This document shows positions 2,257 to 59,500 of a DNA stretch of 64,000 bases, piece by piece. Origin of the DNA: a virus; the IMG/VR virus record IMGVR_UViG_3300042567_002119, positions 26,568 to 90,567 of that record, one strand, 5' to 3'. The position numbers and the translations under genes were made by a program. The notes beneath the pieces are model-generated. The model made no database searches, was not told the origin of the DNA, and worked only from the letters and a program-made list of their open reading frames with translations. How positions within the stretch are numbered: the stretch's first letter is position 1; the number at the start of each line of letters is the position of its first letter.

Positions 2257-2847
2257 ATGATTAAGACCTTTAAAACTTTTACAAATGAAGCACTTAGTCC
2301 AGCTATTTTAACTAGTTCAATTAATGAGTGTACAGCTAATCAACTTAAGAGTATTTCTGAATTTAAAAGTACTTATAAAACTGAGTTAGATAAAGCAAAT
2401 AAGATTGTTAACGTATACCAGGTAATTGATAAATTTAGTACCTGGCTAGTTGGTAAAACTCCAGCAATGGTCCAAGCTGCTCTATTAAATTCGCCAGGAA
2501 CTGCTGATAAACTGGTAATTGAGGCATATACTTTCATTTATATGGAAATACAAAATCAATTAAAGTCAATTGGTACACTTAAAAAATCAGCACTTAAATT
2601 ACTGGCTCCATCCGCTGCTGACTTTGATTCGCAAAAAACTGACTCAGACTTAGTGAATCAAATTATACAATTAGTGGAATCGTTATTTGATGTAGGCTTT
2701 ATGATTGGTTACAAATTTGACAGTAAGTCAATTGAGGCAAATAATGCTTCAAACTGGTCAGTTTCTTTTACCAAATCTCTTAATTCTAGGAAATCTTTAA
2801 TATTCAAAAATATTAAACTATTAATTCGTAACTTTTTATATAACTAA
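2257..2847 (+). CDS. Putative capsid-targeted internal protein (CTS N-terminus)
   Basis: The N-terminus MIKTFKTFTNEALSP closely resembles the T4 internal-protein capsid targeting sequence (MKTYQEFIxEA), with a likely cleavage after the Glu of TNE. The remaining roughly 185 residues are unrecognised, mostly helical and polar. It is the only strongly tagged gene in the first 7 kb; no clean ATAAATAA box is seen upstream, only an AT-rich leader. Function unknown; packaging in the head is inferred from the tag. Confidence 0.6.
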   Translation: MIKTFKTFTNEALSPAILTSSINECTANQLKSISEFKSTYKTELDKANKIVNVYQVIDKFSTWLVGKTPAMVQAALLNSPGTADKLVIEAYTFIYMEIQNQLKSIGTLKKSALKLLAPSAADFDSQKTDSDLVNQIIQLVESLFDVGFMIGYKFDSKSIEANNASNWSVSFTKSLNSRKSLIFKNIKLLIRNFLYN

Positions 2848-2853
2848 TTGTCT

Positions 2854-3126
2854 ATGACAAAATTAAAAGAATGTTTATTATTATTTGCAATTCAGCTTGT
2901 ACTGTATGGAATTTTATGCATAAATTTTAGAGCAGTTGCTGAAACTCAATATCACTTAGCAGCAGTTAGTGATTTTACAATAGCTTCACTAAATTTTTTC
3001 GTAATCCGAAAAATTGCAAAGAGCGAAGATTCACTACACCAATGGTTTGGTTATGTTACTGGCTCAGTAGCCGGGTCATATTTAGGAATTTGGTTATCGG
3101 TTCAACTAGCCAATACAATTTTGTAG
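2854..3126 (+). CDS. Small membrane protein, three predicted TM segments
   Basis: The start is placed at the ATG at 2854 rather than an in-frame TTG six bases upstream. About 90 residues hold hydrophobic stretches near residues 5-22, 30-50 and 68-88, with a Gly/Ser-rich segment in the last. It follows the tagged gene by 6 bases. A holin-like role is possible from size and topology but not shown; no family was recognised. Confidence 0.65.
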   Translation: MTKLKECLLLFAIQLVLYGILCINFRAVAETQYHLAAVSDFTIASLNFFVIRKIAKSEDSLHQWFGYVTGSVAGSYLGIWLSVQLANTIL

Positions 3127-3133
3127 TATAATA
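3124..3133 (+). promoter_or_regulatory. AGTATAATA-class promoter
   Basis: TAGTATAATA ends 5 bases before the ATG at 3139. The same word precedes many genes in the window at similarly short distances. Confidence 0.6.
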
Positions 3134-3138
3134 ACTAC

Positions 3139-4113
3139 ATGAAAGATACTAACGTCCGTTTGGGTTACTGTTGCATTAACTTGTCTCTAGCCGACCAAAA
3201 AATTACAGCCAATCGAGGTATGATCCGTAAAACCTTTCAAGAAAAGGGCGTTTCATATTGTGCTGAGCTTGCGCATCAAAATATAAAAGATGTTCTAAAA
3301 ATTCTACAATGGAATTTAGCTAATGGCATTTACGTATATCGAATGTCAAGCGATATTTTTCCATGGATGTCAGAGTACGAAATTACTCAGCTTCCAAACT
3401 TTATGGAAATCTTGCCAGACATGCAGGCAATCGGCAAGTTTGTAATTGCAAACGGCATGCGAATCTCAATGCATCCAGGCCAGTTCGATGTTCTGCCATC
3501 TCCCAATCCAGCGGTTGTCACAAAAACAGTCAAGGATCTGGACCAGCATGCGCAAATTATGACCTTAATGGGCTTGCCAATTGACCATAATTATCCAATT
3601 AACATTCATGTCGGTGGGACCTATGGCGATAAGGAGTCCGCTGCTCAACGATTCTGTCAGAATTTTCAACGTCTCCACGAAAATACTAAGGCCAGGCTTG
3701 TTGTCGAAAACGACGATAAGGCTACACAGTACTCGGTACTCGATCTTTTTCAATTAGTCTATACGAATATTGGCACGCCAATTACATTTGATTTCCATCA
3801 TCACCGTTTTAACACCAGCGATCTTACTGAGGAAGCTGCACTCGCCCTAGCTGCCACTACCTGGGGACGCGTGACTCCGCTCACTCATTACTCTAGTAGT
3901 AAAAAAACATTTGAAGATCCGTCAGTTATTGCCAGATCCCATGCTGATTACGTTTACGAACAGATAAATACTTATAATCGCAGTTTCGATATTGAGATAG
4001 AGGCCAAGGCAAAAGACCTAGCCGTACTTAAGTATCGTGACTCTTCTGTGAGTCTTCTTGAAAACTACTTGGAGTTCGATGATAAAAGATACTTTGAAAA
4101 AATAGCAGACTAA
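3139..4113 (+). CDS. uvdE: UV damage endonuclease (UvdE/UvsE)
   Basis: The 324-residue protein begins VRLGYCCINLSL, the UVDE family signature, and has the conserved TIM-barrel metal-site motifs HPGQF, NIHVGG, VVENDDK and FDFHHHRFN. UVDE nicks DNA 5' of UV photoproducts and starts alternative excision repair. Full length for the family. It has its own promoter-like box with a 5-base gap to the start and directly abuts the next gene. It adds to a repair set with the Nei-like glycosylase and ligase. Confidence 0.93.
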   Translation: MKDTNVRLGYCCINLSLADQKITANRGMIRKTFQEKGVSYCAELAHQNIKDVLKILQWNLANGIYVYRMSSDIFPWMSEYEITQLPNFMEILPDMQAIGKFVIANGMRISMHPGQFDVLPSPNPAVVTKTVKDLDQHAQIMTLMGLPIDHNYPINIHVGGTYGDKESAAQRFCQNFQRLHENTKARLVVENDDKATQYSVLDLFQLVYTNIGTPITFDFHHHRFNTSDLTEEAALALAATTWGRVTPLTHYSSSKKTFEDPSVIARSHADYVYEQINTYNRSFDIEIEAKAKDLAVLKYRDSSVSLLENYLEFDDKRYFEKIAD

Positions 4114-7001: not shown

Positions 7002-7478
7002 TTACTGTTTAGCAGCTGCTTGATTAGATCTCATCGATAACCTTTTACCAGGAGACTCAAAACTAGATTTTACAGGATTGGCTTGCATAATTTTATTATC
7101 CTTTACCTCTTTGTCCTTCTTGAATACTTTATCGCCATTCATTTTCTTGGTCTTCTTCTTTTCGTTAAGATCAGAACCTTCTGCATACTGAGCCAATAGA
7201 GTATCAGCTTCATCTGCGAATTCTTCAGCAATTGCCTCTCCCATTTCGTCATTAATCATAACAATTAAGTCATTCTCAAGGTCTGTTAATCGGGTAGCAG
7301 TGCCGTATTTTTCAGAGTAAGGGTCAATATCAATGCCTGCTGAGCTGTATTGATTCGCCAATTCAATTAATTCTCTAGCCGTTTCGTGATAGAATCGGTC
7401 TGACTTCATATCCGCTTTTTGGTGAAAATCGTCAAAGCTTTCTTCGAAACTTTCAAATAGTGCAACGTATCGTTTCAT
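7002..7478 (-). CDS. Putative capsid-targeted internal protein (CTS N-terminus)
   Basis: The N-terminus MKRYVALFESFEESF fits the LFExF form of the targeting tag seen on many proteins here. The body is acidic and helical up to about residue 100, then a strongly basic, lysine-rich tail (about 105-158) ends in NQAAAKQ. A basic tail would suit contact with packaged DNA. A late promoter box lies upstream on its strand. No enzyme domain is seen. Confidence 0.65.
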   Translation of the reverse strand: MKRYVALFESFEESFDDFHQKADMKSDRFYHETARELIELANQYSSAGIDIDPYSEKYGTATRLTDLENDLIVMINDEMGEAIAEEFADEADTLLAQYAEGSDLNEKKKTKKMNGDKVFKKDKEVKDNKIMQANPVKSSFESPGKRLSMRSNQAAAKQ

Positions 7479-7505: not shown

Positions 7506-7513
7506 TTATTTAT
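7506..7513 (-). promoter_or_regulatory. Late-type ATAAATAA promoter box
   Basis: GGATAAATAA on the minus strand, 27 bases upstream of the start at 7478; it lies in the gap to the divergent nei-like gene. Confidence 0.65.
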
Positions 7514-7515
7514 CC

Positions 7516-11081: not shown

Positions 11082-11428
11082 TACTAGTAAAATTTAGAGA
11101 CATTGACCCAGATACTGGATCAATTAGTCAAGAAGGAACCGTTGCAACGTGTGCGGATGAACAATTAGCTAACTGGGTTAAGTCTGCTCTTGGGAGAGAT
11201 AACGCTGAGAACGGCGATCCTAATCGTGAATTCTATTTAGACGATCAAGCGAATCGCGAAGCTACATACGAAGAGAGAGTTGCATGGTTCGTTGCAAACT
11301 ATTACGAAACTGGAATGGAGTATGATGCTCTGCTTGAATCAATGAAAGAGGTTAACCTTGACTCATTCGAATGGTATGATGAAACGATAAGTATTCCAAC
11401 TCACTTTAAGAATTACCGCTTAAATTAA
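11078..11428 (+). CDS. Hypothetical acidic protein, 116 aa
   Basis: The ATG at 11078 overlaps the previous stop as ATGA and gives MILVKFRDIDPDTGSISQEG; an in-frame ATG at 11069 would add three residues. Many Asp/Glu and Tyr. The 3' end overlaps the convergent lysin gene by 4 bases. No family recognised. Confidence 0.7.
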   Translation: MILVKFRDIDPDTGSISQEGTVATCADEQLANWVKSALGRDNAENGDPNREFYLDDQANREATYEERVAWFVANYYETGMEYDALLESMKEVNLDSFEWYDETISIPTHFKNYRLN

Positions 11429-12678
11429 GCAACTTCTGCATCTAGGCTCTTAGCGAAGGCGCTTGCTTTCGCTATAGCTTCTCTACCGACAGTTGATCCC
11501 AATGAAGAGCCCCATCCGGCATTTGCCTGAACGTAGTCTTGTACTGCACTGTCTAAGTCAGTATATGCATTTGGATCTTTTCCTTTGCGATCAAACGAAT
11601 CAATGAAATAAATTACTGCGAATTCTGCTGCAACTTCAGGTTTTTCCAATTCTTCAGGATTCTCAACAATATTAACTTTTCCAAGTTTAGCTCCCATTTG
11701 GTCGTATATTCTTTGAAGATTTTCGTAATTTCCTTTAAACGTTATTCCATTAAATCCACGGCCTCTATACTTAGCTCCGTCTCCTGGAGAAACGTTTCCG
11801 TATTTTCCACCGTATACTGCTTCCCAAAATAGGCTATCGAATAATTCTTGGCCTTGGGTCCTCCAACCCTCAATTTGTTCATCGGTGTATTGGGATAATT
11901 TGCTTGGAAATACCTCACGTATTCTTGAAATAGGGGTACCGAAATAAGAAATTTCACTAGTTAAATTAGGAGACTCTTTTGAAATAACTCCAAGTACTGC
12001 CTTTCTAGCAAATTCATTAGTTATTCCGTTTTGATCCATCGCCTTTAGTAAGGCATCCATATTTTCTTCAGGGAATTTTGAGGTAGATTTAAAATTCTGC
12101 CCTTTTCCTGGGGTAAGAGTTGTGTGTTTATCTAGATCAGCTTGTGAAAAGTTTTTATCTTTAAGGGCTGTGATTAGTCGGTTAATAAGATTTGCATCAA
12201 TTAAAACAGAGTCAGTAGTTCGACCGGCTCCCTCTTTACCAGTCTTTGCAAATTCAACGCTGCCTTTGTGTTCCCAATGCCAAGACTCTCTTGGAATATT
12301 TGTGAATCCATAAGTTGCAGCATTGTCCTTCAACCACTGAAGAGCTTCAGCACTAAGGTCTAAGTCAAGAGCGCTTCCCCATCCGTGATTGGAAGTTCCA
12401 GGAACTGCCGCAAGTCCTCCATTTTTATAGAGACCTTTACGTGCAGCGACATCAACTTGCGAATCGTAATCTCTGTACGAGTCAGTAATTCCCCAAGTTA
12501 TTCCGTCTGCTTCGGCAGCAGCTCTCATTTCTTCGTATGCTTTCGCTGCAATTGAATTTAATTTATGACCTTTAGTCGGTTGTCCTGCACCAGCGATAGG
12601 TTCTAATCCAGTAGTATCAAGTCGGCCATTTGCGGCTTCAGTTAAAAACTGTTTGAAATTTAATATCTTATTTTCCAT
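11425..12678 (-). CDS. Tagged two-domain lysin: M15 carboxypeptidase plus GH19-like
   Basis: The start is set at 12678 to give MENKILNFKQFLTEAANGR, a capsid-targeting-like tag; an in-frame ATG at 12711 would hide it. Residues about 35-140 form an M15/VanY D-Ala-D-Ala peptidase with metal ligands in SNHGWGSALDLD and WHWEH. Residues about 170-410 resemble a GH19 chitinase/lysozyme (AVLGVISKES, then GDGAKYRGRGFNGITFKGNY). Both domains cut peptidoglycan. The tag suggests a virion-packaged lysin; it could also serve at lysis. The upstream gene overlaps its start and carries a peptidoglycan-binding domain. Confidence 0.85.
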   Translation of the reverse strand: MENKILNFKQFLTEAANGRLDTTGLEPIAGAGQPTKGHKLNSIAAKAYEEMRAAAEADGITWGITDSYRDYDSQVDVAARKGLYKNGGLAAVPGTSNHGWGSALDLDLSAEALQWLKDNAATYGFTNIPRESWHWEHKGSVEFAKTGKEGAGRTTDSVLIDANLINRLITALKDKNFSQADLDKHTTLTPGKGQNFKSTSKFPEENMDALLKAMDQNGITNEFARKAVLGVISKESPNLTSEISYFGTPISRIREVFPSKLSQYTDEQIEGWRTQGQELFDSLFWEAVYGGKYGNVSPGDGAKYRGRGFNGITFKGNYENLQRIYDQMGAKLGKVNIVENPEELEKPEVAAEFAVIYFIDSFDRKGKDPNAYTDLDSAVQDYVQANAGWGSSLGSTVGREAIAKASAFAKSLDAEVA

Positions 12679-13033
12679 TATCTGAAGTGCTGATTTTTGT
12701 AGTATCCTCATTGAATTTCTGAATAGCTATTGCTGTTTCTGGTCCAAAATAACCATCAACTCCGTGTTCAGGTAATTCGTAACCTAAGAACTCTAGCGCT
12801 GCTTGAATGTCTTCTACTAATTTAGAATAGGTATAGGTTCCGCCGTTTTGGACAGCTACTGATTTTCCAGAATTTGCAAAATCCTCCAATGTAGCATAGA
12901 ACGCTTCGACCTTATCGTCTAGGAGTGTGCCGTCTTCTTTTTTCTGAGCAGAGGTCTCTTCCTTCTTGCCGGTAAGCCAGTCCCAAAAACCCTCATTTGT
13001 TTTTTCTGTGAATTGATTAAAATTATGAATCAT
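12668..13033 (-). CDS. Tagged peptidoglycan-binding (PGBD) protein
   Basis: Begins MIHNFNQFTEKTNEGF, a targeting-like tag. The C-terminal half (about 68-110) is a PGBD_1 repeat: LVEDIQAALEFLGYELP, then VDGYFGPETAIAIQKFN. Its end overlaps the lysin start by 11 bases, so the two are likely translated together and may cooperate on the cell wall. Late promoter box upstream. Confidence 0.8.
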   Translation of the reverse strand: MIHNFNQFTEKTNEGFWDWLTGKKEETSAQKKEDGTLLDDKVEAFYATLEDFANSGKSVAVQNGGTYTYSKLVEDIQAALEFLGYELPEHGVDGYFGPETAIAIQKFNEDTTKISTSDNGK

Positions 13034-13071: not shown

Positions 13072-13079
13072 TTATTTAT
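13072..13079 (-). promoter_or_regulatory. Late-type ATAAATAA promoter box
   Basis: GGATAAATAA on the minus strand, 38 bases upstream of the PGBD gene; it heads the two-gene lysin unit. Confidence 0.6.
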
Positions 13080-13084
13080 CCTTA

Positions 13085-13840
13085 ATGAGTGAGAAAATAA
13101 AGAGAGTAGAGTTAAACGGATTTAGGTATTACGAAGTATCTGACTCATCTGGGATAATTGGCACATTCCCAAGCGTCACTTCAGTTCTTGGAGAAACCTC
13201 CGATAAGACAGGTCTTGATGCTTGGCGAAACCGGGTAGGACATGAGGCAGCTGATCGAATAGGTCGAGATGCCGCCAATCGCGGAACGGTCATGCACAGG
13301 TTGTGTGAACTCTATTTAAGTTTGCCCGCGTCTATGAAACCCAAGGATCGATTAGAAGAGTGTCTTTTGCTATCTAGGTTAGACGATGAAATTGACGAGT
13401 TTGACAGTAGAGCCAAAATTGTGGGTGGAATGTTATTCTACAACTTCGTTAAGTCAAACTCATTCGATGAAATAAAGAGAGTAATTGCACAAGAAAGATT
13501 TCTATGGACTCCAAGAGACGGCGGTTATGCTGGCACAGTCGATAATGTTTCTGAGTTAATAACTAATGACGTTGCAATAGTTGATTTTAAAACAGCGCGT
13601 AAACCCAAGGAAGAGAAATGGATTGAGGATTACAAGCATCAGGTCGCTGCGTATTCAGTTGCCGTTTGGGATAGAATGCAGATCAAAGCTGTTACTTGCC
13701 GAATTTGGATCTCAAACGAAATGCACCTTCAACCCCAGTACTTTAGAATGGACCAGGTCGAAATGCGTGAGTACTATTATAAATTCAGAGAAAGATTAGC
13801 TGACTTTTATAAAAAGAATCCTCCTATTACAATTCAATAG
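13085..13840 (+). CDS. PD-(D/E)XK (RecB/Cas4-like) nuclease
   Basis: 251 residues with the order typical of RecB-like nucleases: GTVMHRLCE (His motif I), GGYAGTVDNV (Asp), VAIVDFKTA (DxK), and DYKHQVAAYSVAV (QxxxY). Such enzymes degrade or resect DNA. The gene ends in a 14-base tail-to-tail overlap with the minus-strand gene. A role in DNA end processing is inferred. Confidence 0.85.
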   Translation: MSEKIKRVELNGFRYYEVSDSSGIIGTFPSVTSVLGETSDKTGLDAWRNRVGHEAADRIGRDAANRGTVMHRLCELYLSLPASMKPKDRLEECLLLSRLDDEIDEFDSRAKIVGGMLFYNFVKSNSFDEIKRVIAQERFLWTPRDGGYAGTVDNVSELITNDVAIVDFKTARKPKEEKWIEDYKHQVAAYSVAVWDRMQIKAVTCRIWISNEMHLQPQYFRMDQVEMREYYYKFRERLADFYKKNPPITIQ

Positions 13841-15820: not shown

Positions 15821-15828
15821 TTATTTAT
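15821..15828 (-). promoter_or_regulatory. Late-type ATAAATAA promoter box
   Basis: GAATAAATAAC on the minus strand, 23 bases upstream of the 656-aa gene. Confidence 0.65.
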
Positions 15829-22182: not shown

Positions 22183-22187
22183 ATTCT

Positions 22188-48522: not shown

Positions 48523-48526
48523 ATAA
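48519..48526 (+). promoter_or_regulatory. Late-type ATAAATAA promoter box
   Basis: GGATAAATAAT, 4 bases before the ATG at 48531. Confidence 0.7.
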
Positions 48527-48530: not shown

Positions 48531-49112
48531 ATGAAGCATATTAAACTTTTTGAGAACTGGTTTCAGGACGTAGAAGATAACGTTGATCGTAAGAGATTTG
48601 CGCCTGAGCTAGAACCTGAAGAGACTAAACCTGCTGAGACTGAAGAAGACCCGGCTGAACCTGAAGAGGAGAAGCCCGATACTCAGGAAGAACCTAAAGC
48701 AGAAGAGCCTACTGAGCCAGAGACATATTCCGGTTGGTTAAAGACCCAAGCTGGCGTAAGCGAAGTTGTTGAAGCTGAAGAAGGTACAGACAATTCAAAT
48801 GGTTGGGTTCGCTTGTCAAATGGAGTATCCATTCAATGGGAAATCGATATGCGAGACTATCCGTTCCTTTCCGTAAGTTATATGCTTGATAAAAAAGTAA
48901 TTCAGTTAGCTGATAATCCAGCCGGCGATCTTGCTCGACAATTCTACAAAGAGGGCCGTGAATACATTCCTAGAGAATGGGAGTCTGTTGTAATTAAAAT
49001 AGGTGCAGGTGTTCCAGCCTTGATAAAGGATGCAATTGCTTCAAACAAGCGACGAATGAAGGAGCAGGACGAGATCTTATCAGGTCAAATCGTTGCAGCT
49101 TTTAGCAAATAA
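48531..49112 (+). CDS. Putative capsid-targeted protein with Glu/Pro-rich linker, 193 aa
   Basis: The start at 48531 gives MKHIKLFENWFQDVEDN. A Glu/Pro/Thr-rich linker (about 28-70, PAEPEEEKPDTQEEPKAEE) is followed by a folded region (80-180). No enzyme motif seen. Head-internal by tag. Confidence 0.65.
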   Translation: MKHIKLFENWFQDVEDNVDRKRFAPELEPEETKPAETEEDPAEPEEEKPDTQEEPKAEEPTEPETYSGWLKTQAGVSEVVEAEEGTDNSNGWVRLSNGVSIQWEIDMRDYPFLSVSYMLDKKVIQLADNPAGDLARQFYKEGREYIPREWESVVIKIGAGVPALIKDAIASNKRRMKEQDEILSGQIVAAFSK

Positions 49113-49116
49113 ATAA
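49109..49116 (+). promoter_or_regulatory. Late-type ATAAATAA promoter box
   Basis: AATAAATAACT, 4 bases before the ATG at 49121. Confidence 0.65.
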
Positions 49117-49120: not shown

Positions 49121-49435
49121 ATGAAGCAGCACGTAAACCTATTCGAAGAATTCGATAACGACCAAGAAGAATTAAAATCCATGGGCTTCCGTAGCAAGCC
49201 AGACGGTTCACCTGACGAAAGATTCGACGAAGCTGTATCAGAGTGGTATCAAGATCCTGAAGTAACTGCAGCAATCGCTCTTCTTAAAAGAAAATCAACT
49301 GAAATCCTTGAAAAATGGATAGATTTTTCAGACGATGAGGATGAAACTGAATTTGACCAACGAGTATCATGGGTATACGACAATGGAGTTGATGACGTAG
49401 GCTGGTTTGAATTCGTAACAATGCTTGATAATTAA
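49121..49435 (+). CDS. Putative capsid-targeted acidic protein, 104 aa
   Basis: MKQHVNLFEEFDNDQEE tag; acidic body resembling the protein at 46766 in composition (both have DxxVSWVYD/ADFEWRS-like ends). Followed by a strong terminator. Confidence 0.6.
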   Translation: MKQHVNLFEEFDNDQEELKSMGFRSKPDGSPDERFDEAVSEWYQDPEVTAAIALLKRKSTEILEKWIDFSDDEDETEFDQRVSWVYDNGVDDVGWFEFVTMLDN

Positions 49436-49499: not shown

Positions 49500-50024
49500 A
49501 TGGAATACGAACAACTCATTCAAGGCTGTATTGAAAACAATAGAGAATACCAAAAGACCCTGTTCGATAAGTTTGCTGGTAAATTCATGACTATCGCAAA
49601 GAGGTACATGAAAGACCCTATGTTAGCCGAAGACGTATTGATGGAAGGATTTTATAAAATATACAAGAATCTTGGGAAATTCAAAGGAGAAGGTTCCTTT
49701 GAAGGGTGGATGAGACGAATCATCGTGAATACTGCGCTTACTAAACTCAAGCAGAACAAGCACGAGTTTAATGAGTGTAACTTAGTAACAGCGGAGGCAG
49801 TCAGTATAGATCCAACTTACTATGAAACAGCATCAGCCGAAGAGTTAATGTCTCTGATTAGCACTCTTCCGATTGGATATCGTACCGTTTTTAACATGTA
49901 CGTAATTGACGGATTTTCCCATAGGGAAATTGCAAAGGAACTTAACATACAAGAAGCCTCAAGTAGATCACAGCTATTTAAGGCAAAGGATTTTTTACAA
50001 AAACGAATAAACCCAAATACATGA
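49500..50024 (+). CDS. ECF-type sigma factor
   Basis: The start is the ATG at 49500. 174 residues: KTLFDKFAGKFMTIAKRYMK (region 2.1), EDVLMEGFYKIYKNLGKFKG and FEGWMRRIIVNTALTKLKQ (2.2-2.4), then LPIGYRTVFNMYVIDGFSHR and IAKELNIQEASSRSQLFKA (region 4). Two-domain ECF of the kind abundant in Bacteroidota. Candidate for one of the non-host promoter classes. GGTATAGTA near 49486 may be its promoter. Confidence 0.9.
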   Translation: MEYEQLIQGCIENNREYQKTLFDKFAGKFMTIAKRYMKDPMLAEDVLMEGFYKIYKNLGKFKGEGSFEGWMRRIIVNTALTKLKQNKHEFNECNLVTAEAVSIDPTYYETASAEELMSLISTLPIGYRTVFNMYVIDGFSHREIAKELNIQEASSRSQLFKAKDFLQKRINPNT

Positions 50025-50113: not shown

Positions 50114-50120
50114 CCCACGG

Positions 50121-50128
50121 ATAAATAA
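50121..50128 (+). promoter_or_regulatory. Late-type ATAAATAA promoter box
   Basis: GGATAAATAACC, 19 bases before the ATG at 50148; it heads a three-gene tagged run. Confidence 0.7.
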
Positions 50129-50147: not shown

Positions 50148-50372
50148 ATGCAACATATTAAATTATTCGAACAATTTATAGCAGAATTCACAATGACTGA
50201 GCCGATTGTTAAACCTGCGCCAGTTAAAGAGCCTAGCACTCGACCTGCAACTAGACCCAAACCTAGTCCAATTCCTAGCAAACAACCGTTTAAACAACCT
50301 GAGCCAGCTAAGGCTCAAGCTGAGGATGTAATTGCTCGCCTAAAAAGTCTAGAATCAAATGAAGAGCTTTAA
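50148..50372 (+). CDS. Putative capsid-targeted Pro/Lys-rich protein, 74 aa
   Basis: MQHIKLFEQFIAEFTMTE (compare T4 YQEFIAEA), then a Pro/Lys/Thr-rich disordered stretch (PAPVKEPSTRPATRPKPSP). Overlaps the next gene by 14 bases. Basic and unstructured, like small T4 internal proteins. Confidence 0.7.
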   Translation: MQHIKLFEQFIAEFTMTEPIVKPAPVKEPSTRPATRPKPSPIPSKQPFKQPEPAKAQAEDVIARLKSLESNEEL

Positions 50373-51717
50373 AACATTCTTAAATGAAGCTGACATTCGT
50401 CAGAACCCAGCAATAACTCCAGAATACTTAGGATCTCTTGATAAACGAGCAGAACAGAGCGCTCGTGAAGTTGAACAGAGACACGGTCGAGATATGGGTA
50501 GCCTAATGAGAGCTGTCCGTGAAGTACAGATGTTACAACGCGGTAAAGAACGCCAGCTTGAAGAGTTAACTACTTCAGTAATCCTAAGCCAGTACGGTTC
50601 AATTCTTGGAGAAACTGAGTTAGACATTAAGATTCCAAACGATCCTCGTGAAATGAAAGCGAAGATGAAGGAGACTGATGACGACGATCAAGAAGATCAG
50701 GACAAACCCAATTTCAAAGAGATTGAGGATGAGGATACTAAAACAGCAATCAATAAACGTAAGATCCTAAACATGATCGCTCAAGGCGAAGCCATTAATT
50801 CAAAGAAGATGTTAATGGGCGATGAGAACATGGAAGGTCTAACTCAATTATTTGGAGAGGCTAATGCCCGTAAAATGGTAGAGCTGCTAGTTACGATTAC
50901 TGATATTTGTAATGCTAGAGACTGGAGAATACCTGAAGAGGTTGGAGCAAAAATGATTGAGCAAGGAGATTCCCTTGCCGGTATTTCAAAAATTGAATGG
51001 AAACCTAAATCTAAAAAGGATAACGATGATGATCAAGGTCAAGAAGACGGAGAGTCTGAAGAAGAGACAGTTGACGAAACGACTGTTCCTACCTTAGTTA
51101 TTAGAGGAATGGACCAAGCAATGTTATTCCATGAATCTATTAAAGCAATTTGGGGACTGATTAATCAAGGAGGTCTTGCTAATCTAGACGATGAGACTAT
51201 CCGAAAAGTGTTCATGAATACTGATACTGCCGCTGACGAAGTACAGGATCTTAAACGTGCTAAATTAACTGCAGCTGATCTTAGAGATTTTATCCAATCT
51301 TTCGAAGAAGTATTTGATATTGAAAACGGTAGAGAATACGTATGGGGTAAAATGATTGACTCAACAGTCGTATCTGATTCTGACTTCTTGGACCTAATGA
51401 AATTAATATTCACAGCAGCTCCGTTATACAGAACAGTTGGCGAACAGGAACCTCAATACACAGAGTCTGAAATCGCTGCTGCTAAAGAATCTTTTCCTAA
51501 AGCCAAAGCCATAGTAAATAACTTGATCCGTCTAATTAAACAGGAACTTGCTGATTGGGAAGACTCTCAATCTGATTCTAGCTACGATGAGCCTGACTTT
51601 ACTATGCCAGCCAACGATAGAGAACTTGATCAAGTTGATATTCAGAACATGATTGATGCAGCTCTAGATAATAGAGACTTCGCTGAAGTTGAAAGGTTAA
51701 GTAACTTACTTAAATAA
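50359..51717 (+). CDS. Putative capsid-targeted protein, 452 aa
   Basis: MKSFKTFLNEADIRQNP is the closest match in the window to the T4 tag. Long charged helical protein with acidic linkers (110-125, 215-240). No enzyme motif. Possibly scaffold-like or internal core protein. Confidence 0.65.
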   Translation: MKSFKTFLNEADIRQNPAITPEYLGSLDKRAEQSAREVEQRHGRDMGSLMRAVREVQMLQRGKERQLEELTTSVILSQYGSILGETELDIKIPNDPREMKAKMKETDDDDQEDQDKPNFKEIEDEDTKTAINKRKILNMIAQGEAINSKKMLMGDENMEGLTQLFGEANARKMVELLVTITDICNARDWRIPEEVGAKMIEQGDSLAGISKIEWKPKSKKDNDDDQGQEDGESEEETVDETTVPTLVIRGMDQAMLFHESIKAIWGLINQGGLANLDDETIRKVFMNTDTAADEVQDLKRAKLTAADLRDFIQSFEEVFDIENGREYVWGKMIDSTVVSDSDFLDLMKLIFTAAPLYRTVGEQEPQYTESEIAAAKESFPKAKAIVNNLIRLIKQELADWEDSQSDSSYDEPDFTMPANDRELDQVDIQNMIDAALDNRDFAEVERLSNLLK

Positions 51718-51720: not shown

Positions 51721-52566
51721 ATGAAGCATCTTAAGATATTTGAAAGTTGGGTCAACGAATCCCTTACTGCTGATCAAATCGCTGATAAAATTCAAATAGC
51801 CGTTGCTGGTTCAGGAACTGCAGAGGGTGATTTAGTATCAGCAATCAAGTCTATTCCCGATGCTGCATCCATGGTTCGTGTAAACAAAGCACTTAAAACC
51901 GGGTTCGATACAAAGAGCTGGGATTACGCAAGTGTTGGCGATGCAATTACCGGAGAACTTGGATCCTTTGATCAAGATTACTTGGATCAAATCAACACTC
52001 ACATAAAGAATATTAGAGCTGAGAAGTACTTAGGATCTTTCGTTGCTCCTCCTCCACCTGAAGATACAGTATTAAAGGTTATTGAGCCTAGGGTAATCCA
52101 ACATGAAGGCTACAAACCAAAGAAGTACATAGACTCTAAAGGAAATCCAACAGTCGGTGTAGGATTCAATCTAAACCGCTCTGACTCAACGTCAATGCTT
52201 AGGTCAGTTGGTGCAAATCCAATAAAGATAAAGTCAGGCCAGTCTGCATTAACCGATCAGCAGATTAAAGCTCTTCTGCATACTGATCTTCAAGCCGCAA
52301 AGTCTTTAGCTAAAACTTTAGTATCAGATAATGGGAAAGTCAGCATAGCTAAAGTTTGGCCAAGCTTGCCACAATCAGTACAAGGAGTCTTAATTGAAAT
52401 GGTATTTAATTTAGGAGCTAAAGGCCTATCTGAGTTTAACACGTTTCTACTTCACATAGCTTCAAAGAATTTCAAGGCTGCATCCAAAGAGATGTTAAAT
52501 TCTTCATGGGCAAAACAGGTCGGTAATCGAGCAATAACTCTATCTAACATTGTTAAATCTGCATAA
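51721..52566 (+). CDS. Tagged T4-type lysozyme (GH24)
   Basis: MKHLKIFESWVNESLTAD tag, a helical spacer (20-110), then a GH24 domain with catalytic triad spacing as in T4 lysozyme: Glu129, Asp138, Thr144 in HEGYKPKKYIDSKGNPTVGVG. It hydrolyses peptidoglycan. The tag suggests it is packaged and delivered with DNA, or it may be a lysis enzyme with a processed leader. Confidence 0.88.
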   Translation: MKHLKIFESWVNESLTADQIADKIQIAVAGSGTAEGDLVSAIKSIPDAASMVRVNKALKTGFDTKSWDYASVGDAITGELGSFDQDYLDQINTHIKNIRAEKYLGSFVAPPPPEDTVLKVIEPRVIQHEGYKPKKYIDSKGNPTVGVGFNLNRSDSTSMLRSVGANPIKIKSGQSALTDQQIKALLHTDLQAAKSLAKTLVSDNGKVSIAKVWPSLPQSVQGVLIEMVFNLGAKGLSEFNTFLLHIASKNFKAASKEMLNSSWAKQVGNRAITLSNIVKSA

Positions 52567-52587: not shown

Positions 52588-53010
52588 ATGATAGCAGAAA
52601 ACCGAAAAGCCCGACACGAATACACATTTTTAGAGACATGGACCGCTGGGATCTCCTTAACTGGATCAGAGGTCAAGTCAATTAAGGCGGGTAACCTTGA
52701 CTTTACTGGATCCTGGTGCGAACTTCGGTCAGGTGAATGCTTCTGTCGAGAACTGTACATAAAAGAATCAACCTCAGCATACAGTCACCAAGGTAAACGA
52801 GAGAGGAAGCTACTCTTAACTAAAAAGGAACTAAAGAAACTAAATAAACTGATGGACAGGGGCCTCACAATCGTTCCAGTAAAGATCTTCGTTAACTCGT
52901 CAGGTTTAATTAAGATTGCGATTGCTCTAGCCAAAGGAAAGAAGGATTGGGATAAGCGACATGTTATTAAAGAACGAGATCTCAGCCGAGCTTTAACCTC
53001 TGAATACTAG
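52588..53010 (+). CDS. smpB: SsrA-binding protein SmpB
   Basis: 140 residues with the SmpB landmarks: NRKARHEYTFLETW, GISLTGSEVKSIKAGN, ERKLLLTKKELKKL, GLTIVPVKIFVNSSGLIKIA, and the GKKDWDKR segment that precedes the C-terminal tail. SmpB binds the tRNA-like domain of tmRNA and brings it to stalled ribosomes. Full length. A phage copy is unusual. No tmRNA with a tag frame was found, but four tRNA-like RNAs are in the window. Confidence 0.93.
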   Translation: MIAENRKARHEYTFLETWTAGISLTGSEVKSIKAGNLDFTGSWCELRSGECFCRELYIKESTSAYSHQGKRERKLLLTKKELKKLNKLMDRGLTIVPVKIFVNSSGLIKIAIALAKGKKDWDKRHVIKERDLSRALTSEY

Positions 53011-53011
53011 A

Positions 53012-53019
53012 ATAAATAA
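53012..53019 (+). promoter_or_regulatory. Late-type ATAAATAA promoter box
   Basis: GAATAAATAACC, 20 bases before the ATG at 53040. Confidence 0.65.
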
Positions 53020-53039: not shown

Positions 53040-53873
53040 ATGCCAAAGTACATTAAATTATTTGAAGCTTTCCAAAACGAAGCCCAAGCATATAAGTTCG
53101 ATCCAACTAAATCAGTCTTAACTGGAGCTGCAGTATACAGTGCTGGAACATCATACGCTAAATTTACACTAGGTCGAATCTATATTGCGACTGAAGATAA
53201 TGAATCCACCAAAAAAGCACCAGGAAACGTATTAGTCCTTTTAACGGCTAAGAACAAGGACGTTGAGAAAAAACTTACTGATCTTGGTGGAGTGGCTGCG
53301 GCTCTTCAAGCTAGCGAAATTAACGAACCGCCTGCAGCTGGAGGTGGAGTCTACAAGTATCAAGCATCCTACATATTTAATTTAACTGATCCAGTTGCAG
53401 GAGATCAAATTCTTGGTAAAATTGCAGCTGCTATTAACACAGCACCGACTGGTTCAACTGGAACAAGCGGTACAGCTGGAACTGCTGGAAGCAAGGGAGA
53501 TTACGCAGAAGGTTTCTTTGGAAAAGATATTATGACAGCTTTTAGATCGCATGTCGCCGATGTTACTGGAGTTGCATATCAAGCAGCAACCAGTATTCCA
53601 GCGTATCAAGCATCTCTTCAAAACAAGGAACTAAACAAGAGACTTAATTCGGATGCTGAATTTTTAAAGTTAATGAAAGAGGTTGAAGAGCAAGCTAAGT
53701 TAACAAACGTTGTTGACTTTACTACTGGAAAAACGAAGGATGGAAAGATCGATGCAAAATATCTTGAAATAAGAAAAAAGGTTGCAGCTAGAACTGAAGT
53801 AATTAAAAGTCAGTTAATGAATGCTGGTTCTACCGGTACATCAGGTACGGCTGGTACCGCAGGTAAAATCTAA
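53040..53873 (+). CDS. Putative capsid-targeted protein with Gly-Thr repeats, 277 aa
   Basis: MPKYIKLFEAFQNEAQAY tag, N-terminal beta region, then two copies of GSTGTSGTAGTAG (about 138-150 and near the C-terminus). These collagen-like Gly-x-x blocks look like linkers; the segment between is helical (160-260). Function unknown. Confidence 0.65.
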   Translation: MPKYIKLFEAFQNEAQAYKFDPTKSVLTGAAVYSAGTSYAKFTLGRIYIATEDNESTKKAPGNVLVLLTAKNKDVEKKLTDLGGVAAALQASEINEPPAAGGGVYKYQASYIFNLTDPVAGDQILGKIAAAINTAPTGSTGTSGTAGTAGSKGDYAEGFFGKDIMTAFRSHVADVTGVAYQAATSIPAYQASLQNKELNKRLNSDAEFLKLMKEVEEQAKLTNVVDFTTGKTKDGKIDAKYLEIRKKVAARTEVIKSQLMNAGSTGTSGTAGTAGKI

Positions 53874-53883: not shown

Positions 53884-55023
53884 ATGAAGCACTTACAACT
53901 GTTTGAAAACTGGAAAGACGAATTATCTACAAGCCAATCTCAATTGGCTGAGCTCGATGCTCTGCGCGATTTCGCAATTATATCAGCAGACGATTACGCT
54001 CAACAAGGAAAGGCTCTTCTGAGCAAGATCGCTGGAATTAATCGTAAACTTCTTAAAGACGCTGATGCGACTCATCCTCGATGGTCAGCTGAGTGGTTAG
54101 CTGAAATTTCTGAGTACCCTTCTCTTACTTGGTTAACTGATTCGCTAGCTTCGCCTGAATTACAGTCACTATTGGCAAAAGGATTTTATCCATGTTCAAG
54201 TAATATTCAACTGGGAAACCGTACCTTAATGCTATCTAAAAATCCTAACTATTCTCCATTAACTGATACAGCAATTGGATTCTTTTCTTCAATTAATGTA
54301 GTACGTCGAATCGTGCAGAAGCCTAATCCTAAGATGACTTACATGGATCAAAAGCTTAAAGAACTAGATGGAGGTCTTTCTCCAGTAGAGTTCATGAAGC
54401 AGGCAAGTCTATGGGTTCAGGAGAATTTAGTTCTAGAAGTAGACTACCTTCCAAGTAAAAGAGCTTATGCAAGTGATGTAAAGAAAGAGAATCAAGTCGA
54501 ATTAATGTATTCAACTCTTGAGACTAAATTTGCAGAGCGCGGCGTTAATTTAGATAGAACACAAATTAAAGCTCTTCCAATTCGAGGTCTGTATCACGGG
54601 TCAGTTGAGATGGCAAAATTAATAAAGCTGCTACAAAAGCAAACCGATCAGTCAAAACCTCTTGAGCTGCCGTTAAACGAGTGGAGTAAATACACTCAGT
54701 CAGAAATAGATGCAATGTCTAATCCTAATTTAGTATGGACCGTTTCAGCAAACGGCCAGCTCCGATTTGGGTTAGGCTACCCTTACGACAACAATATCCC
54801 AACCGATATTAGCAGATTAAATATCAAGCTTGAGTCTACGACTATTCTTGATTACGTATCGGCTGCTAGTACTCAGGTTACGAATCAGTTATTAACTAAA
54901 TTATCTCAAGCTGGACTGCAATTCATACAGAAGCTTGAGTGTCCAACTGAAGAGATTGACTTGGACATGTACCCAACTATTCAAGTTAATGAAATCAAAA
55001 ATATCAGAGACCAACGTCGATGA
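53884..55023 (+). CDS. Putative capsid-targeted protein, 379 aa
   Basis: The start is the ATG at 53884 (MKHLQLFENWKDELSTSQ). Mixed fold, no motif recognised. Ends in an ATGA overlap with the next tagged gene, so translation is coupled. Confidence 0.65.
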   Translation: MKHLQLFENWKDELSTSQSQLAELDALRDFAIISADDYAQQGKALLSKIAGINRKLLKDADATHPRWSAEWLAEISEYPSLTWLTDSLASPELQSLLAKGFYPCSSNIQLGNRTLMLSKNPNYSPLTDTAIGFFSSINVVRRIVQKPNPKMTYMDQKLKELDGGLSPVEFMKQASLWVQENLVLEVDYLPSKRAYASDVKKENQVELMYSTLETKFAERGVNLDRTQIKALPIRGLYHGSVEMAKLIKLLQKQTDQSKPLELPLNEWSKYTQSEIDAMSNPNLVWTVSANGQLRFGLGYPYDNNIPTDISRLNIKLESTTILDYVSAASTQVTNQLLTKLSQAGLQFIQKLECPTEEIDLDMYPTIQVNEIKNIRDQRR

Positions 55024-56456
55024 AACACATACAGCTATACGAAAGCTGGATATTTGAGAATGTCCAAGCAGCAAAAGCATACATGCTTAAGAGAGCAGCA
55101 CAGTCTCTAGGAAAAGAAGTAAGTGAACTTACTCCTGAGGAACAGACTCGTGCTCTAAACAATCGTCAATACCTAGAAGTACTTGAATTACTTGGTCAAA
55201 AATACAATGGTTACTTAGGAACTTTCGTTAAATTCCATTTCGAACAGAGAATTTCAGTAGACCAATTGAAACAACTATTGGACCAAATGATTAAGTACCG
55301 TCAACTAGTTAGCACTCTTCCATATACACTAGATGCCTATTCAAACGGAAATCCTGAACCTGGATCTACAGTTTCAGGTTTTGAAGCGCTAATGGACCAG
55401 TTCAGAACATTTGAATTTAATTCCAAAGGTAAATGGATAATTGATGCTCTTCCTAGAGAACTTAGAGATCAGGCTCGTGCTCTTGATCCGGAAAAACAAA
55501 AGGAACTTATTCGTATTGGTTGGACAATCGCTGATCAGGGCGAAGCTATTCAAAAGAGAGTAATGTCCAAAGTTGCTCGCTACCGAACTATTCAAGATTT
55601 CATGAAGTATGCATTAGATATTTCAAGCTCAGATGAAGGTTCTCAAAAATTAGTAGCTCAAGCTGAAAGTCTTTCTCCTGAAATTCAGGTAATGTACGAT
55701 GATAATAATTACGTGGTCTTTTCAGTTAGGACTGAAGCTGCACAGAAAGCAATATTCCGTATGGCTAACTGGTGTCTAAACACTGGAAGTTGGGACTCTT
55801 ATGTAAGTCGTGGAGTTCAATTAAATATCCTTAACTTTAATGTTCCGAATAGTGATCCAATGTTTGTAACTGGAACAACAGTCCTTGCCTCAGACTCAAG
55901 TGTTAAAGCGTCACACGATGCAAACGACCGCAATATAAAGAAAGATTCTGATCCAGCTACTCATTTACAAATGAACGGCTATCCGGAAGATCTTGTTAAT
56001 CAAGTAATTGCACTACTTCCGTCTGAGATAGTGGTGAAGACTGTTCTTGCAAATATTATGTCTAAAGCAGGAGTTGATGCAAAGATCCAATCACTTGCGG
56101 TTGCAGGTCATGATCTAGAAACCCTAACTGATCCAGTCGCTAGAGAACAGGTTGAAAGAGATTTGCTAATTATTATTGATAACGAATTTGAATCAGAGAA
56201 TTTCTCAACTGAAGCAATGTTGGAAGGATTCAAGAAACATGGAATACTTTCAATGTTCGCTGCTAAGCTATACCATAAACTTCTAGTAGGTAAAATCTCT
56301 CAAGAAGATGTTGATGCAATCTTTGCTAAGACAGAAAGAGGCTTTGAACTCTTAACCAGAAATGTAAACAACTGGCCTGATCCAAAGATTAAGGCAAAGA
56401 TTACTGCCGTGCTTGCCGCGAAAGATCAAATTCTGAATTTAGCAAGAACTGTCTAA
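55020..56456 (+). CDS. Putative capsid-targeted protein, 478 aa
   Basis: MKHIQLYESWIFENVQAA tag; helical, with a central region VVFSVRTEAAQKAIFRMANW then CLNTGSWDSYVSRGVQL whose Trp/Cys pattern recalls internal proteins of large phages. No enzyme assignment. Confidence 0.65.
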   Translation: MKHIQLYESWIFENVQAAKAYMLKRAAQSLGKEVSELTPEEQTRALNNRQYLEVLELLGQKYNGYLGTFVKFHFEQRISVDQLKQLLDQMIKYRQLVSTLPYTLDAYSNGNPEPGSTVSGFEALMDQFRTFEFNSKGKWIIDALPRELRDQARALDPEKQKELIRIGWTIADQGEAIQKRVMSKVARYRTIQDFMKYALDISSSDEGSQKLVAQAESLSPEIQVMYDDNNYVVFSVRTEAAQKAIFRMANWCLNTGSWDSYVSRGVQLNILNFNVPNSDPMFVTGTTVLASDSSVKASHDANDRNIKKDSDPATHLQMNGYPEDLVNQVIALLPSEIVVKTVLANIMSKAGVDAKIQSLAVAGHDLETLTDPVAREQVERDLLIIIDNEFESENFSTEAMLEGFKKHGILSMFAAKLYHKLLVGKISQEDVDAIFAKTERGFELLTRNVNNWPDPKIKAKITAVLAAKDQILNLARTV

Positions 56457-57523: not shown

Positions 57524-58330
57524 ATGCATAAATTAAGTTTCGTTTGCACGTCCTATCGTAGGTACCGTTGCGTTGAACGAATAATCGAACAGTACTTACA
57601 ACAAGACTATCGAAATGCTGAGCTAATTATCTTAAATACTGATACTGACAATCCATTTCGGTTATCTGATGGATTGCTGTATGCAAATATTACAGTAATT
57701 AATAATTCAATTGATTACGTTACTGGATTACCGTATACTAATCGTGGAGCCATTTGTAGAGATGCAGTCTCCCATGCAACTGGCGACTACTTCATGTTAG
57801 CTGATGACGATGATGTTTACTTGCCTTGGCATTTTAGACAAGCAGTTGAAGGTATAATTGAAATCGGGCACGATTCATGGAAACCTGAGATGAGTATGTT
57901 TGCGGCTCCTAATAAGCTAGAGCTTGTTCGTAATACAATGGAGGCATCCGTTATTGTAAAGATGCACAGAATCAGAGAGATTGGTTTCCGAACTGATGCA
58001 ACCGGGTATGAAGGTTTAAGCTGGTACACCAAGCTTAGAGATGAGGGTCAATTGGACGAGCACAACCCACGATATATTCCTTCTTACTGCTTTAACTGGT
58101 CAGATCCAGCTGAATTGGCTGGCCATAAACAGAGCGGCGATATCAACAATCCAAATAACTTTGAGAACCATAAGTTAAGTTCAAGAGATATTTCAGATAA
58201 GCCACTAGATCGCTGCGGCTCTCTAGAGATTACTAAGTTCTATCAAAAGTACTTTGATTTCTTACGAGCAAATCAAGATAAGTTCAGTCAAGATCTTTGG
58301 GGCAGGTACGCAAAAACGTATATCGGTTAA
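57524..58330 (+). CDS. GT2-like glycosyltransferase
   Basis: 268 residues, GT-A fold: start MHKLSFVCTSYRRYRCVERI, then AVSHATGDYFMLADDDDVYL with the DxD metal site. Sugar transfer to DNA, virion or host surface is possible; the late box suggests virion glycosylation or surface change. Confidence 0.8.
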   Translation: MHKLSFVCTSYRRYRCVERIIEQYLQQDYRNAELIILNTDTDNPFRLSDGLLYANITVINNSIDYVTGLPYTNRGAICRDAVSHATGDYFMLADDDDVYLPWHFRQAVEGIIEIGHDSWKPEMSMFAAPNKLELVRNTMEASVIVKMHRIREIGFRTDATGYEGLSWYTKLRDEGQLDEHNPRYIPSYCFNWSDPAELAGHKQSGDINNPNNFENHKLSSRDISDKPLDRCGSLEITKFYQKYFDFLRANQDKFSQDLWGRYAKTYIG

Positions 58331-58341
58331 GAATTTGTCTA

Positions 58342-58349
58342 ATAAATAA
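58342..58349 (+). promoter_or_regulatory. Late-type ATAAATAA promoter box
   Basis: AATAAATAACT, 5 bases before the ATG at 58355. Confidence 0.65.
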
Positions 58350-58354
58350 CTTAG

Positions 58355-59500
58355 ATGAAACACTTAAAACCATACAACCAGTTCCTTAATGAGGGAGAAT
58401 TCTACAAAGGAGAATTGAACTCTATATTCTGGCAGGACCAGAAGTTTAACCCAGAGGTTCGTACGAAACTTTTGCAGATTGCAACTGATTTCTATACTGA
58501 CCTAAAAGTTGAAGCACCAATCATAGACATTCATTTGACTGGATCTCTAGCTAACTTTAACTGGACAGAACACTCTGACTTGGACGTCCATGTTATTCTA
58601 GACTTTACTATTATCGGAGATGACGTTGAGCTTGTAAAGAAAGCAGTTGATGGATTACGTTTTATCTGGAATCTTAGACACCCAGTAAAGATCCAAGGTT
58701 TTGATGTTGAATTGTATGCACAAGACAAGGACGAACCACACGTTGCATCAGGTTTATATTCCCTAATGAAAGACGAATGGATCACGGTTCCTGAACCAAG
58801 TAATCCACAGATTGACGAAAAGGATGTTTACCGTAAAGTAGAGGCATTCATTACTGAAATTGAGGAACTTGAAAAGGAAGTAGTTAAGTCAGATTCAGAT
58901 CAGGCTAGAGAAGTACAGGACAGAATCTCTGCTCTTAAACAGAAAATCATGAAGGCTCGTAAAGAGGGTCTTGCTGCAAACGGTGAGTTCTCTATCGAGA
59001 ATCTAGTATTTAAACAGTTGCGTAATCAAGGTTACCTTGAGAGATTGATTGACTTAGGCGCTGATGCATATTCCCATATCTATTCTGAACCAAACGATTC
59101 ACTAGACGATAAGCCATCTGATGTAAACGAAAATATCTCAATGGGAAAAGGCAGTTGCGTTCTAGTACTTGGTCCTGAAGTTCAGGGTCAAAAGAGACTA
59201 TTCGCGTTTCATGCAGAATACATTAATGAAGTTGAACGAAACGGTTGGCAAGTAAAAATGGTTGGACTTGGCGCTCCAAGTCTGGTTGTTAATCAAGACG
59301 GTAGACTTGTTGCAAAGCAGGTTAACATGAATGCTGCTAATCTAAAGAAGTTCGCAGGTCTTTCCAGCAATACAGTAGTCTTAAATTCAAAAACCAAGAC
59401 CCCATACTGGCACCAAACCGTTAAGTACACGAATCATCAAACTCTACTAAACGACATGGGTCGTACATTAATGTCAATTCCCGGAGTTTCTTTCGACTAA
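58355..59500 (+). CDS. Tagged nucleotidyltransferase-fold protein
   Basis: 381 residues. MKHLKPYNQFLNEGEFYK tag, then a pol-beta-like nucleotidyltransferase core: HLTGSLANFNWTEHSDLDVH (GS...SDLDVH, Asp75/Asp77), ending about residue 150, a coiled coil (about 155-200) and an uncharacterised C-terminal domain. Capsid targeting would let it enter the cell with the DNA, as T4 Alt does with ADP-ribosylation. Target and nucleotide unknown. Confidence 0.8.
   Translation: MKHLKPYNQFLNEGEFYKGELNSIFWQDQKFNPEVRTKLLQIATDFYTDLKVEAPIIDIHLTGSLANFNWTEHSDLDVHVILDFTIIGDDVELVKKAVDGLRFIWNLRHPVKIQGFDVELYAQDKDEPHVASGLYSLMKDEWITVPEPSNPQIDEKDVYRKVEAFITEIEELEKEVVKSDSDQAREVQDRISALKQKIMKARKEGLAANGEFSIENLVFKQLRNQGYLERLIDLGADAYSHIYSEPNDSLDDKPSDVNENISMGKGSCVLVLGPEVQGQKRLFAFHAEYINEVERNGWQVKMVGLGAPSLVVNQDGRLVAKQVNMNAANLKKFAGLSSNTVVLNSKTKTPYWHQTVKYTNHQTLLNDMGRTLMSIPGVSFD

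Follow-up and report, generated by a model that had tools for sequence, protein, structure and literature searches.

The closest described counterparts of the system considered here are the internal proteins of the phage T4 head, which carry a short N-terminal capsid targeting sequence (CTS). Residues 4 and 7 of the T4 sequence MKTYQEFIAEA are ascribed to targeting and residues 8 and 10 to processing, and the partner that the CTS binds in the prohead core is described only loosely in passages of the same source (PMC9026906). The T-even internal proteins are highly diverse and have only a conserved CTS in common (PMC3012670). We analyzed 64,000 nucleotides of viral DNA (the window; bases 26568-90567 of the 90,567-base virus record G000, IMGVR_UViG_3300042567_002119) in which at least 21 genes encode proteins with N-termini of this type, here called tags. 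The window matched a 270,962-base record, G002, at 100.00% identity (as rounded) across 100% of its length, and G002 was taken to represent the remainder of the virus beyond the window. Overall, our data support that in this 271 kb, T4-related phage the T4-type system of capsid targeting and cleavage is greatly expanded, with approximately 30 proteins that would dock on the prohead core, likely on repeats of the scaffold, a reading to which we assign a probability of roughly 0.8.

The likeness to T4 IpI, IpII and IpIII extends to a short N-terminal tag with aromatic residues three apart and then hxE (h, hydrophobic) before a small residue, to bodies that are unrelated, to a protease of the gp21 family, and to a split form of the tag such as that of IpI. 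There are also differences: T4 has three Ips, to which a review table adds Alt as an internal protein, versus approximately 30 tagged proteins here; several cargo bodies here have recognisable enzyme or peptidoglycan-binding domains; and the scaffold to which the protease is fused here has tag-like repeats. The ejection proteins of SPN3US and phiKZ are similar in that they belong to jumbo phages with a large internal protein mass, part of which is cut after Glu, but a short tag common to dozens of proteins is not apparent in the relevant passages of that paper (PMC5694885). In phage P1, an N-terminal signal brings the defence protein DarB, and also a reporter, into the head; according to passages of that work, this N-terminus, in contrast to a short peptide, may depend on its tertiary structure, and P1 is apparently without a separate scaffolding system (PMC9024508).

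An earlier reading of the window from its letters alone (the sequence-only reading) had listed at least 21 proteins with a T4-like N-terminus, and all 21 of the listed starts were confirmed to open reading frames (ORFs). Our gene calls, including their starts, are mechanical ORF calls rather than curated annotation (112 in the window, 350 in G002), and the status of a protein as tagged or homologous was partly judged by eye. Eighteen of the 21 coincide with the start of an ORF on the mechanical list, and the other three are in-frame ATGs inside longer ORFs: 12678 (minus strand) lies 33 bases inside an ORF from 12711, 48531 lies 24 bases inside one from 48507, and 53884 lies 6 bases inside one from 53878. 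In the T4 record, IpII and IpIII start with MKTYQEFIAEA, and the spacing of the tags here is that of T4. The pattern that had been described held for most of the proteins and not for all. In strict form ([FY]xx[FW]xxE within residues 2-20) it is present in 14 of the 21, and in 16 when E or D is allowed (D replaces E in the tags of 48531 and 49121); the five variants are 7478 (LFESFEES), 13033 (FNQF then TNEG), 15797 (LRDIVNES), 28585 (FNGF then LTES) and 46766 (FEEINRED). In many tags the last residues are hNE, followed by N, S, A or G.

The number of tags greatly exceeds chance. The strict pattern was found in 15 of the 112 window ORF calls, versus a mean of 0.76 and a maximum of 6 in 10,000 shuffles of N-terminal residues; the fifteenth match, at 41993, looks unrelated and was not counted as a tag. 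A looser pattern matched 21 of 112 starts, versus 3.4 in shuffled sequences (maximum 9, 500 shuffles) and 2.7 at random internal positions, which places the tag at the extreme N-terminus. These 21 matches differ from the 21 listed starts, and those at 1594, 11069, 37063, 38821 and 41993 were judged to be chance. All-against-all BLASTP of the 21 bodies (residue 19 onward) gave no match at E <= 0.01, in agreement with the earlier view that the tagged proteins are mutually unrelated. Across G002, a fitted tag profile matched 33 of 350 ORF calls versus 3.1 shuffled (maximum 8), and a separate loose rule gave 36 starts, six of which were judged by eye to be chance, leaving approximately 30 tags. 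The very large payload that the sequence-only reading had proposed is supported by this phage-wide estimate, obtained with the fitted profile and then weeding by eye.

The tags are also conserved in pattern. Diverged homologues were available for 15 of the 21 genes, and for 13 of these 15 at least one homologue has a tag or tag-like start, as judged by eye. Tags persist where bodies are between 77% and only 28% identical, while their letters switch; in 58355, for example, the MKHLKPYNQFLNEG of this phage is replaced by MRYLNKFTDFINES in L265 and by MKLFKFTEFINEG in L259. Two residues of the tag, the second aromatic and the Glu, are invariant in each of two alignments (W10 and E13 in the 55020 set, F10 and E13 in the 58355 set). 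The alignment of 55020 with six homologues, three of them near copies, revealed a two-part structure, with the aromatic pair near the N-terminus, [IL]xEN at the start of the conserved body, and 0-14 residues between them. Three of these homologues gain a tag once an upstream in-frame ATG is taken as the start. T4 IpI is split in a like manner (MKTFKEF...ITEA), and the split form is in line with the 10-19 residues given for T4 propeptides (PMC9026906). A general test for enrichment of split tags was weak, with 3 in G002, 4 in the related record G006, 6 in LR756500 and 12 in LR756501 versus 1.8, 2.3, 2.7 and 4.3 shuffled, and 1 each in T4 and pT24 versus 1.1 and 1.0; only LR756501 exceeded all shuffles. 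The split form therefore rests on the homologue series. In L265 and L253, the homologue of 50148 has no tag of its own and forms the C-terminal end of a tagged 55020 homologue, as if a single tag per chain sufficed.

A gp21-type protease, for which the sequence-only reading had proposed a search and whose absence it would have taken as a refutation, was found in G002. It is encoded at 99883-101904 (673 residues), directly before the major capsid protein gene (phrog_138), and matched Peptidase_S77 (PF03420) at 36.6 bits versus a cut-off of 27 and the head maturation protease family phrog_207 at an E value of 1.7e-37. Orthologs of gp21 in jumbo phages are already known from passages of PMC7824862. 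Among the 10 records searched, Peptidase_S77 was above the Pfam cut-off in six, all six of those of 250-271 kb, and absent from the four fragments of 89-128 kb; four of the six share the same TerL, and a TerL scan placed G002 among these four records of 270-271 kb. A PF03420 search of the window's own 90.6 kb record gave no match and its control was likewise silent, the protease gene lying outside that fragment. When G002 and seven further sequences were aligned with T4 gp21, all eight had the GE..HP and S[ST]R segments, which presumably hold the catalytic residues of gp21. At a conserved position of the clade's capsid protein, [IL]NE stands before S or A in 12 of 12 aligned rows, with variable sequence thereafter; this is the predicted cleavage site of the capsid protein, and its hNE is shared with the end of many tags. 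Just 3' of the capsid gene are two small ORFs, at 103709 and 104095, with a tag or near-tag.

The scaffold itself resembles the tag. Behind the protease domain, the same polypeptide continues as a scaffold part with 14-residue repeats (Y-S-x-Y-[LIV]-x-E-N, e.g., YSEYVAEN...; other examples are YSEYLGEKVNQNIN, YSEYVAENVEKTIE and YTNYLAENVDRGIQ). When a tag profile was trained on N-termini, with the protease-scaffold left out, and proteomes were scanned for internal matches, the protease-scaffold ranked first of 254 proteins in G002, of 239 in G006, of 747 in LR756501 and of 422 in LR756504 (400 of 636 kb). G002 and G006 are related, and the two megaphages were taken to be related too, so these represent nearer two than four independent cases. 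Matches over all eight columns in the repeat domain numbered 5 in G002, 9 in G006 and 10 in LR756501, counts reached by none of 1000 shuffles of that domain and by none of the windows of other proteins (440, 488 and 497 windows, respectively). The resemblance of tag and scaffold is statistically clear in two lineages and fails in one related phage. A literature search covering titles and the starts of abstracts, with most subscription papers outside its scope, found no report of an expanded set of tags or of mimicry of the scaffold in phages of this kind, which is weak evidence that the resemblance is a new point.

Tag sets, each with its own wording, are present in several relatives of this phage. 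A megablast search of phage records with window positions 40000-62000 gave no match. Based on the protease and the capsid protein, the nearest named relatives are the uncultured megaphages LR756500-504 and LR745206, the Prevotella Lak phages, Tenacibaculum phages pT24 and PTm1, Chryseobacterium phage MA9V, Sphingomonas phage PAU and Flavobacterium phage MaF61. The fitted tag counts were 43 of 672 ORF calls in LR756500 versus 5.1 shuffled (some 25 starts read MKYI..Y..F), 41 of 607 in LR756504 (400 kb) versus 4.1, and 89 of 1053 across all 735 kb of LR756501 versus 7.0, where 60-80 were counted by eye. A genome of 735 kb is the size of the largest phage genome in PMC7162821, the relevant passages of which make no mention of such tags. 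In PAU, 19 of 307 ORF calls start with MK[TS]..L[YF]E; its fitted count (12 versus 2.5) was rejected as a tag count, as the profile missed PAU's LYEA tag. PAU is also similar in that several of its tagged proteins adjoin the protease and that gp154 is annotated as an "internal capsid protein", and it differs in the wording of its tag, in having a separate protease gene, and in that no 14-residue repeat was seen in gp151-gp155. With the fitted profile and inspection of N-termini, pT24 showed no clear tag set and no uniform wording.

Many tagged genes are preceded by a sequence that resembles what we take to be the T4 late promoter, TATAAATA. The motif [AGT]ATAAATA, sought within 80 bases upstream of starts, was found before 13 of the 21 tagged genes versus 10 of the 91 other window ORF calls (Fisher p 3e-6). 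The association was similar in G002 (18 of 36 versus 44 of 314, p 2e-6), also for genes with an upstream gap of at least 20 bases (15 of 21 versus 36 of 159, p 1.5e-5), and in G006 (14 of 30 versus 41 of 276, p 1e-4); it was weak in LR756500 (9 of 28 versus 84 of 641, p 0.009). Other carriers of the motif in G002 include the genes for the protease-scaffold and the tail sheath. The sheath gene is that at G002 118874; L001 14281, which had been considered for it, was ruled out as it had no PHROG match. An extracytoplasmic function (ECF)-like sigma factor (Sigma70_r2 and r4_2 domains) is encoded within the window at 49500-50024 (+), and is a candidate reader of the ATAAATA sites.

The sequence itself establishes that the tags exist, are enriched and are conserved, that a protease gene is present, that the repeats resemble the tags and that late-promoter-like sites occur; from these features we infer packaging, a docking partner and cleavage as follows. 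The aromatic pair [FY]xx[FW] would dock each tagged protein onto the prohead core, and the gp21-type prohead protease would then cut at hxE after this pair, so that the mature cargo is released within the head. The docking surface would likely be the scaffold half of the protease-scaffold fusion. As the 14-residue repeats look like the tag, the cargo would fit into the core as a mimic of one scaffold repeat, and the same enzyme would cut both tag and scaffold. Ejection of the cargo into the host is only a possibility. An extension, which we regard as falling a little short of probable, is that repeats and tags are one structural unit in these very large T4-like phages, that any protein gaining such an N-terminus becomes head cargo and is released later by the same cut, and that the wording of the tags in each phage tracks that of its scaffold, with LR756501 carrying on the order of 60-80 different cargo proteins in its head. 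A scaffold that repeats the tag would be a concrete candidate for the docking partner of the CTS. If the proposed system is real, huge phages bring a large pre-made kit of proteins in the head, compared to three Ips and Alt in T4, and the kit here would include cell-wall enzymes, a nudix hydrolase and possibly a nucleotidyltransferase. The tags would also provide a route to the function of many uncharacterised genes, as well as a naturally modular signal for protein loading.

Several of our results weigh against this proposal. The fitted profile exceeded shuffles even in T4 (16 versus 2.5) and pT24 (11 versus 2.4), which indicates that fitted tag counts are inflated. The lead of the scaffold in LR756504 was narrow by summed score (40.9 versus 40.4), and in LR756500 the scaffold was 102nd by hits and 22nd by summed score of 488 proteins, with repeats that were not significant versus shuffles in the full-column test. 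By the same two measures, the scaffold ranked 69th and 39th of 184 in T4 (gp22), 15th and 21st of 240 in PAU (gp155, whereas the PAU record labels gp152 "scaffolding") and 11th and 9th of 237 in pT24; these three ranks are uninformative, as the fitted profile described no real tag set there. The aromatic-side columns alone were not enriched in the G002 repeats (422 of 1000 shuffles reached the count), and although in G006 and LR756501 only 0 and 2 of 1000 shuffles, respectively, reached the count, so did 8 of the 488 and 13 of the 497 windows in other proteins. An AlphaFold model of the scaffold was uninformative (mean predicted local distance difference test (pLDDT) score 42). The three diverged homologues of 48531 (L268, L260 and L251), the L104 match of 49121 and some homologues of 53884 were called without a tag, which may reflect start-call error or real loss. 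The link between promoter-like motif and tag was absent by the same test in LR756501, PAU, T4 and pT24.

The alternative that survives best is that the motif is only the recognition sequence of the prohead protease, with the repeats resembling the tags as co-substrates and with targeting done otherwise for each protein. The segment AFGSFLTEA of T4 gp23, which we take to be the position of its cleavage site, has F at the same two places, and the repeat domain is rich in E and would be cut too. We consider this explanation improbable, however, based on three observations: the predicted capsid site of the clade, F[DE]NAG[SA][IL]NE[SA], is without aromatics at those places; the 55020 homologues and T4 IpI separate the aromatic pair from the cleavage site; and residues 4 and 7 of the T4 sequence serve targeting, as passages of PMC9026906 describe. 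Less probable still, in our view, is that the tag directs proteins elsewhere than the head interior, for instance to the tail, the baseplate, a membrane or a phage compartment within the cell. That some of the cargo (the lysozyme, VanY and peptidoglycan-binding proteins) acts on peptidoglycan would suit tail or lysis proteins, but the T4 spacing, the matching protease, the scaffold match and the two tagged or near-tagged ORFs 3' of the capsid gene all point to the head. That the N-termini are remnants of one 5' end that was recently duplicated or spread by gene conversion, without common function, is hardly credible, since, for all that wording is similar within one phage (MKHIKLFE here, MKYIKEYEEFLLEA in LR756500, MKTLxKLYEA in PAU), the bodies are without similarity, the pattern is kept though letters change between homologues, the key residues are invariant across diverged homologues, and the aligned sets are without neutral decay of the pattern.

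With respect to the individual genes, a Pfam scan took in 20 of the 21 tagged proteins (19511 was left out), and those for which no domain is named below had no match above the cut-off. The first gene in the window (2257-2847, +) has the strict tag MIKTFKTFTNEA and a body of this kind. The gene at 7002-7478 (-) has the variant MKRYVALFESFEES, which is not strict, and a late-promoter-like GATAAATA upstream (7507-7514, -). Two adjoining genes encode proteins with domains related to the cell wall. The gene at 11425-12678 (-) has the strict tag MENKILNFKQFLTEAA and a VanY D-Ala-D-Ala carboxypeptidase domain (PF02557, E 1.3e-12), and its G006 homologue starts with MIKGFDQFAGKLNEAA at a body identity of 67%. 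That at 12668-13033 (-) has the split tag MIHNFNQF-TEK-TNEG and a peptidoglycan-binding domain (PF01471, E 1.2e-6), with GATAAATA at 13073-13080 (-) and a homologue starting MFKKFDEFNETLNEG (62%). The tag of 13827-15797 (-), MINSLRDIVNES, is weak, being without aromatics (LRDIVNES); a homologue at 53% has MINSFIQMVNES, the G006 homologue has FIQMVNES, and AATAAATA lies upstream at 15822-15829 (-). The product of 18180-18977 (-), with strict tag MKLLSTYSDWLNEN, is a possible metallopeptidase (HEISH motif; PF06114, E 0.0022, below the cut-off); it has GATAAATA at 18986-18993 (-) and a homologue with MKLLQFSTWLTEN (61%). Two genes with strict tags follow on the other strand: 19029-19490 (+), with MIHKYQQWLDES, a P/A/E-rich body, a homologue with MIYRYNQWLEES and GATAAATA at 19003-19010 (+), and 19511-19699 (+), with MKNLVNSFTKFVNES and a short Cys-containing body.

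Further along, strict tags were found at 23806-25425 (-), where MKHSIIKGYSSWLNEN is preceded by AATAAATA (25457-25464, -) and a homologue at 31% identity starts with MKHSIIKDFKGWNRLIES, and at 26086-27339 (-), where MNLIKGYSQWLNEN is preceded by GATAAATA (27362-27369, -) and sequence searches of Pfam, PHROG and PDB gave no match to the protein at the limits set. The variant MQNYITDFNGFALTES at 28154-28585 (-), with spacing one residue longer, has TATAAATA upstream at 28591-28598 (-), and the variant MKHIKLFEEINRED at 46766-47068 (+) has its second aromatic replaced by I and is not strict. The two tags with D for E, MKHIKLFENWFQD (48531-49112, +) and MKQHVNLFEEFDND (49121-49435, +), are preceded by GATAAATA (48518-48525, +) and AATAAATA (49108-49115, +), respectively; homologues of the latter have MKNLKAFDQFINED, MKNLKAFNQFINED and MKNLKAFTQFINED. 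The tagged proteins 46766 and 49121, together with G002 52436, share another short motif behind the tag, which by eye resembles EELxxLGF. The gene at 50148-50372 (+), with strict tag MQHIKLFEQFIAEF and a P/K-rich body, has GATAAATA at 50120-50127 (+).

The remaining tagged genes lie close together on the same strand. The strict tag MKSFKTFLNEA of 50359-51717 (+) is MKSFKQFLNEA in a homologue at 67% and MQNKVFDFKSFLNEV in one at ~31%. The gene at 51721-52566 (+), with MKHLKIFESWVNES, encodes a phage lysozyme domain (PF00959, E 1.1e-9), and its homologues at 54-62% start with MKH[VL]KLFESW[IV]NEA. The gene at 53040-53873 (+) has the strict tag MPKYIKLFEAFQNEA, AATAAATA upstream at 53011-53018 (+), and homologues with MKYIKLFESFIAEV and MPKYIKLFESFIREG at body identities of 28-35%, and that at 53884-55023 (+) has the strict tag MKHLQLFENWKDEL and mixed homologues, with MKHVKLYESWLDD in L250, MKLLKFAQYISEN in L265 and either no tag or only part of one in the calls of the others. 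The protein of 55020-56456 (+), with strict tag MKHIQLYESWIFEN and the six diverged homologues aligned above, has a mostly helical fold in its AlphaFold model (mean pLDDT 83, first ten residues 48); in a fold search with this model, the best solved structure had an E value of 0.15, outside the limit of E <= 0.001, and the matches within the limit were three viral proteins that are uncharacterised or unnamed. The last gene, 58355-59500 (+), has MKHLKPYNQFLNEG, AATAAATA at 58341-58348 (+), and a nucleotidyltransferase-like body (PF01909, E 0.003, below the cut-off). Other cargo candidates are the nudix hydrolase, which is encoded outside the window, and a HAD-like protein (below the cut-off).

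Some additional genes were noted in these regions. In the head cluster of G002, an acidic protein (106055-106708, +; L094 11055-11705) has the best internal tag match of the proteome, KIKRFEQFVNEN at residue 108 (22.5 bits), and may be a core protein that is cleaved at an internal site. A SmpB gene (PF01668, E 1e-44) is present in the window at 52588-53010 (+), and a transfer-messenger RNA (tmRNA; RF00023, 129 bits versus a gathering score of 47) in G002 (tile L099, 4686-5052, -) encodes the 24-residue tag GNTNFWSLVNESVNAPVTEELLAA. We do not claim this peptide as a carrier of the capsid motif: FWS[LI]VN was found in 9 of 13 distinct tmRNA tags in relatives, with the following E in only 4 of 13, and the likeness is probably due to chance. 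The resolvase-domain protein encoded at 42465-43103 (-), with an HTH_17 match just below the cut-off, is possibly an IS607-like recombinase. Finally, at 21529-23150 (-), between tagged genes, an Endonuclease_NS protein with a signal-peptide-like start is encoded next to a patatin-like phospholipase.

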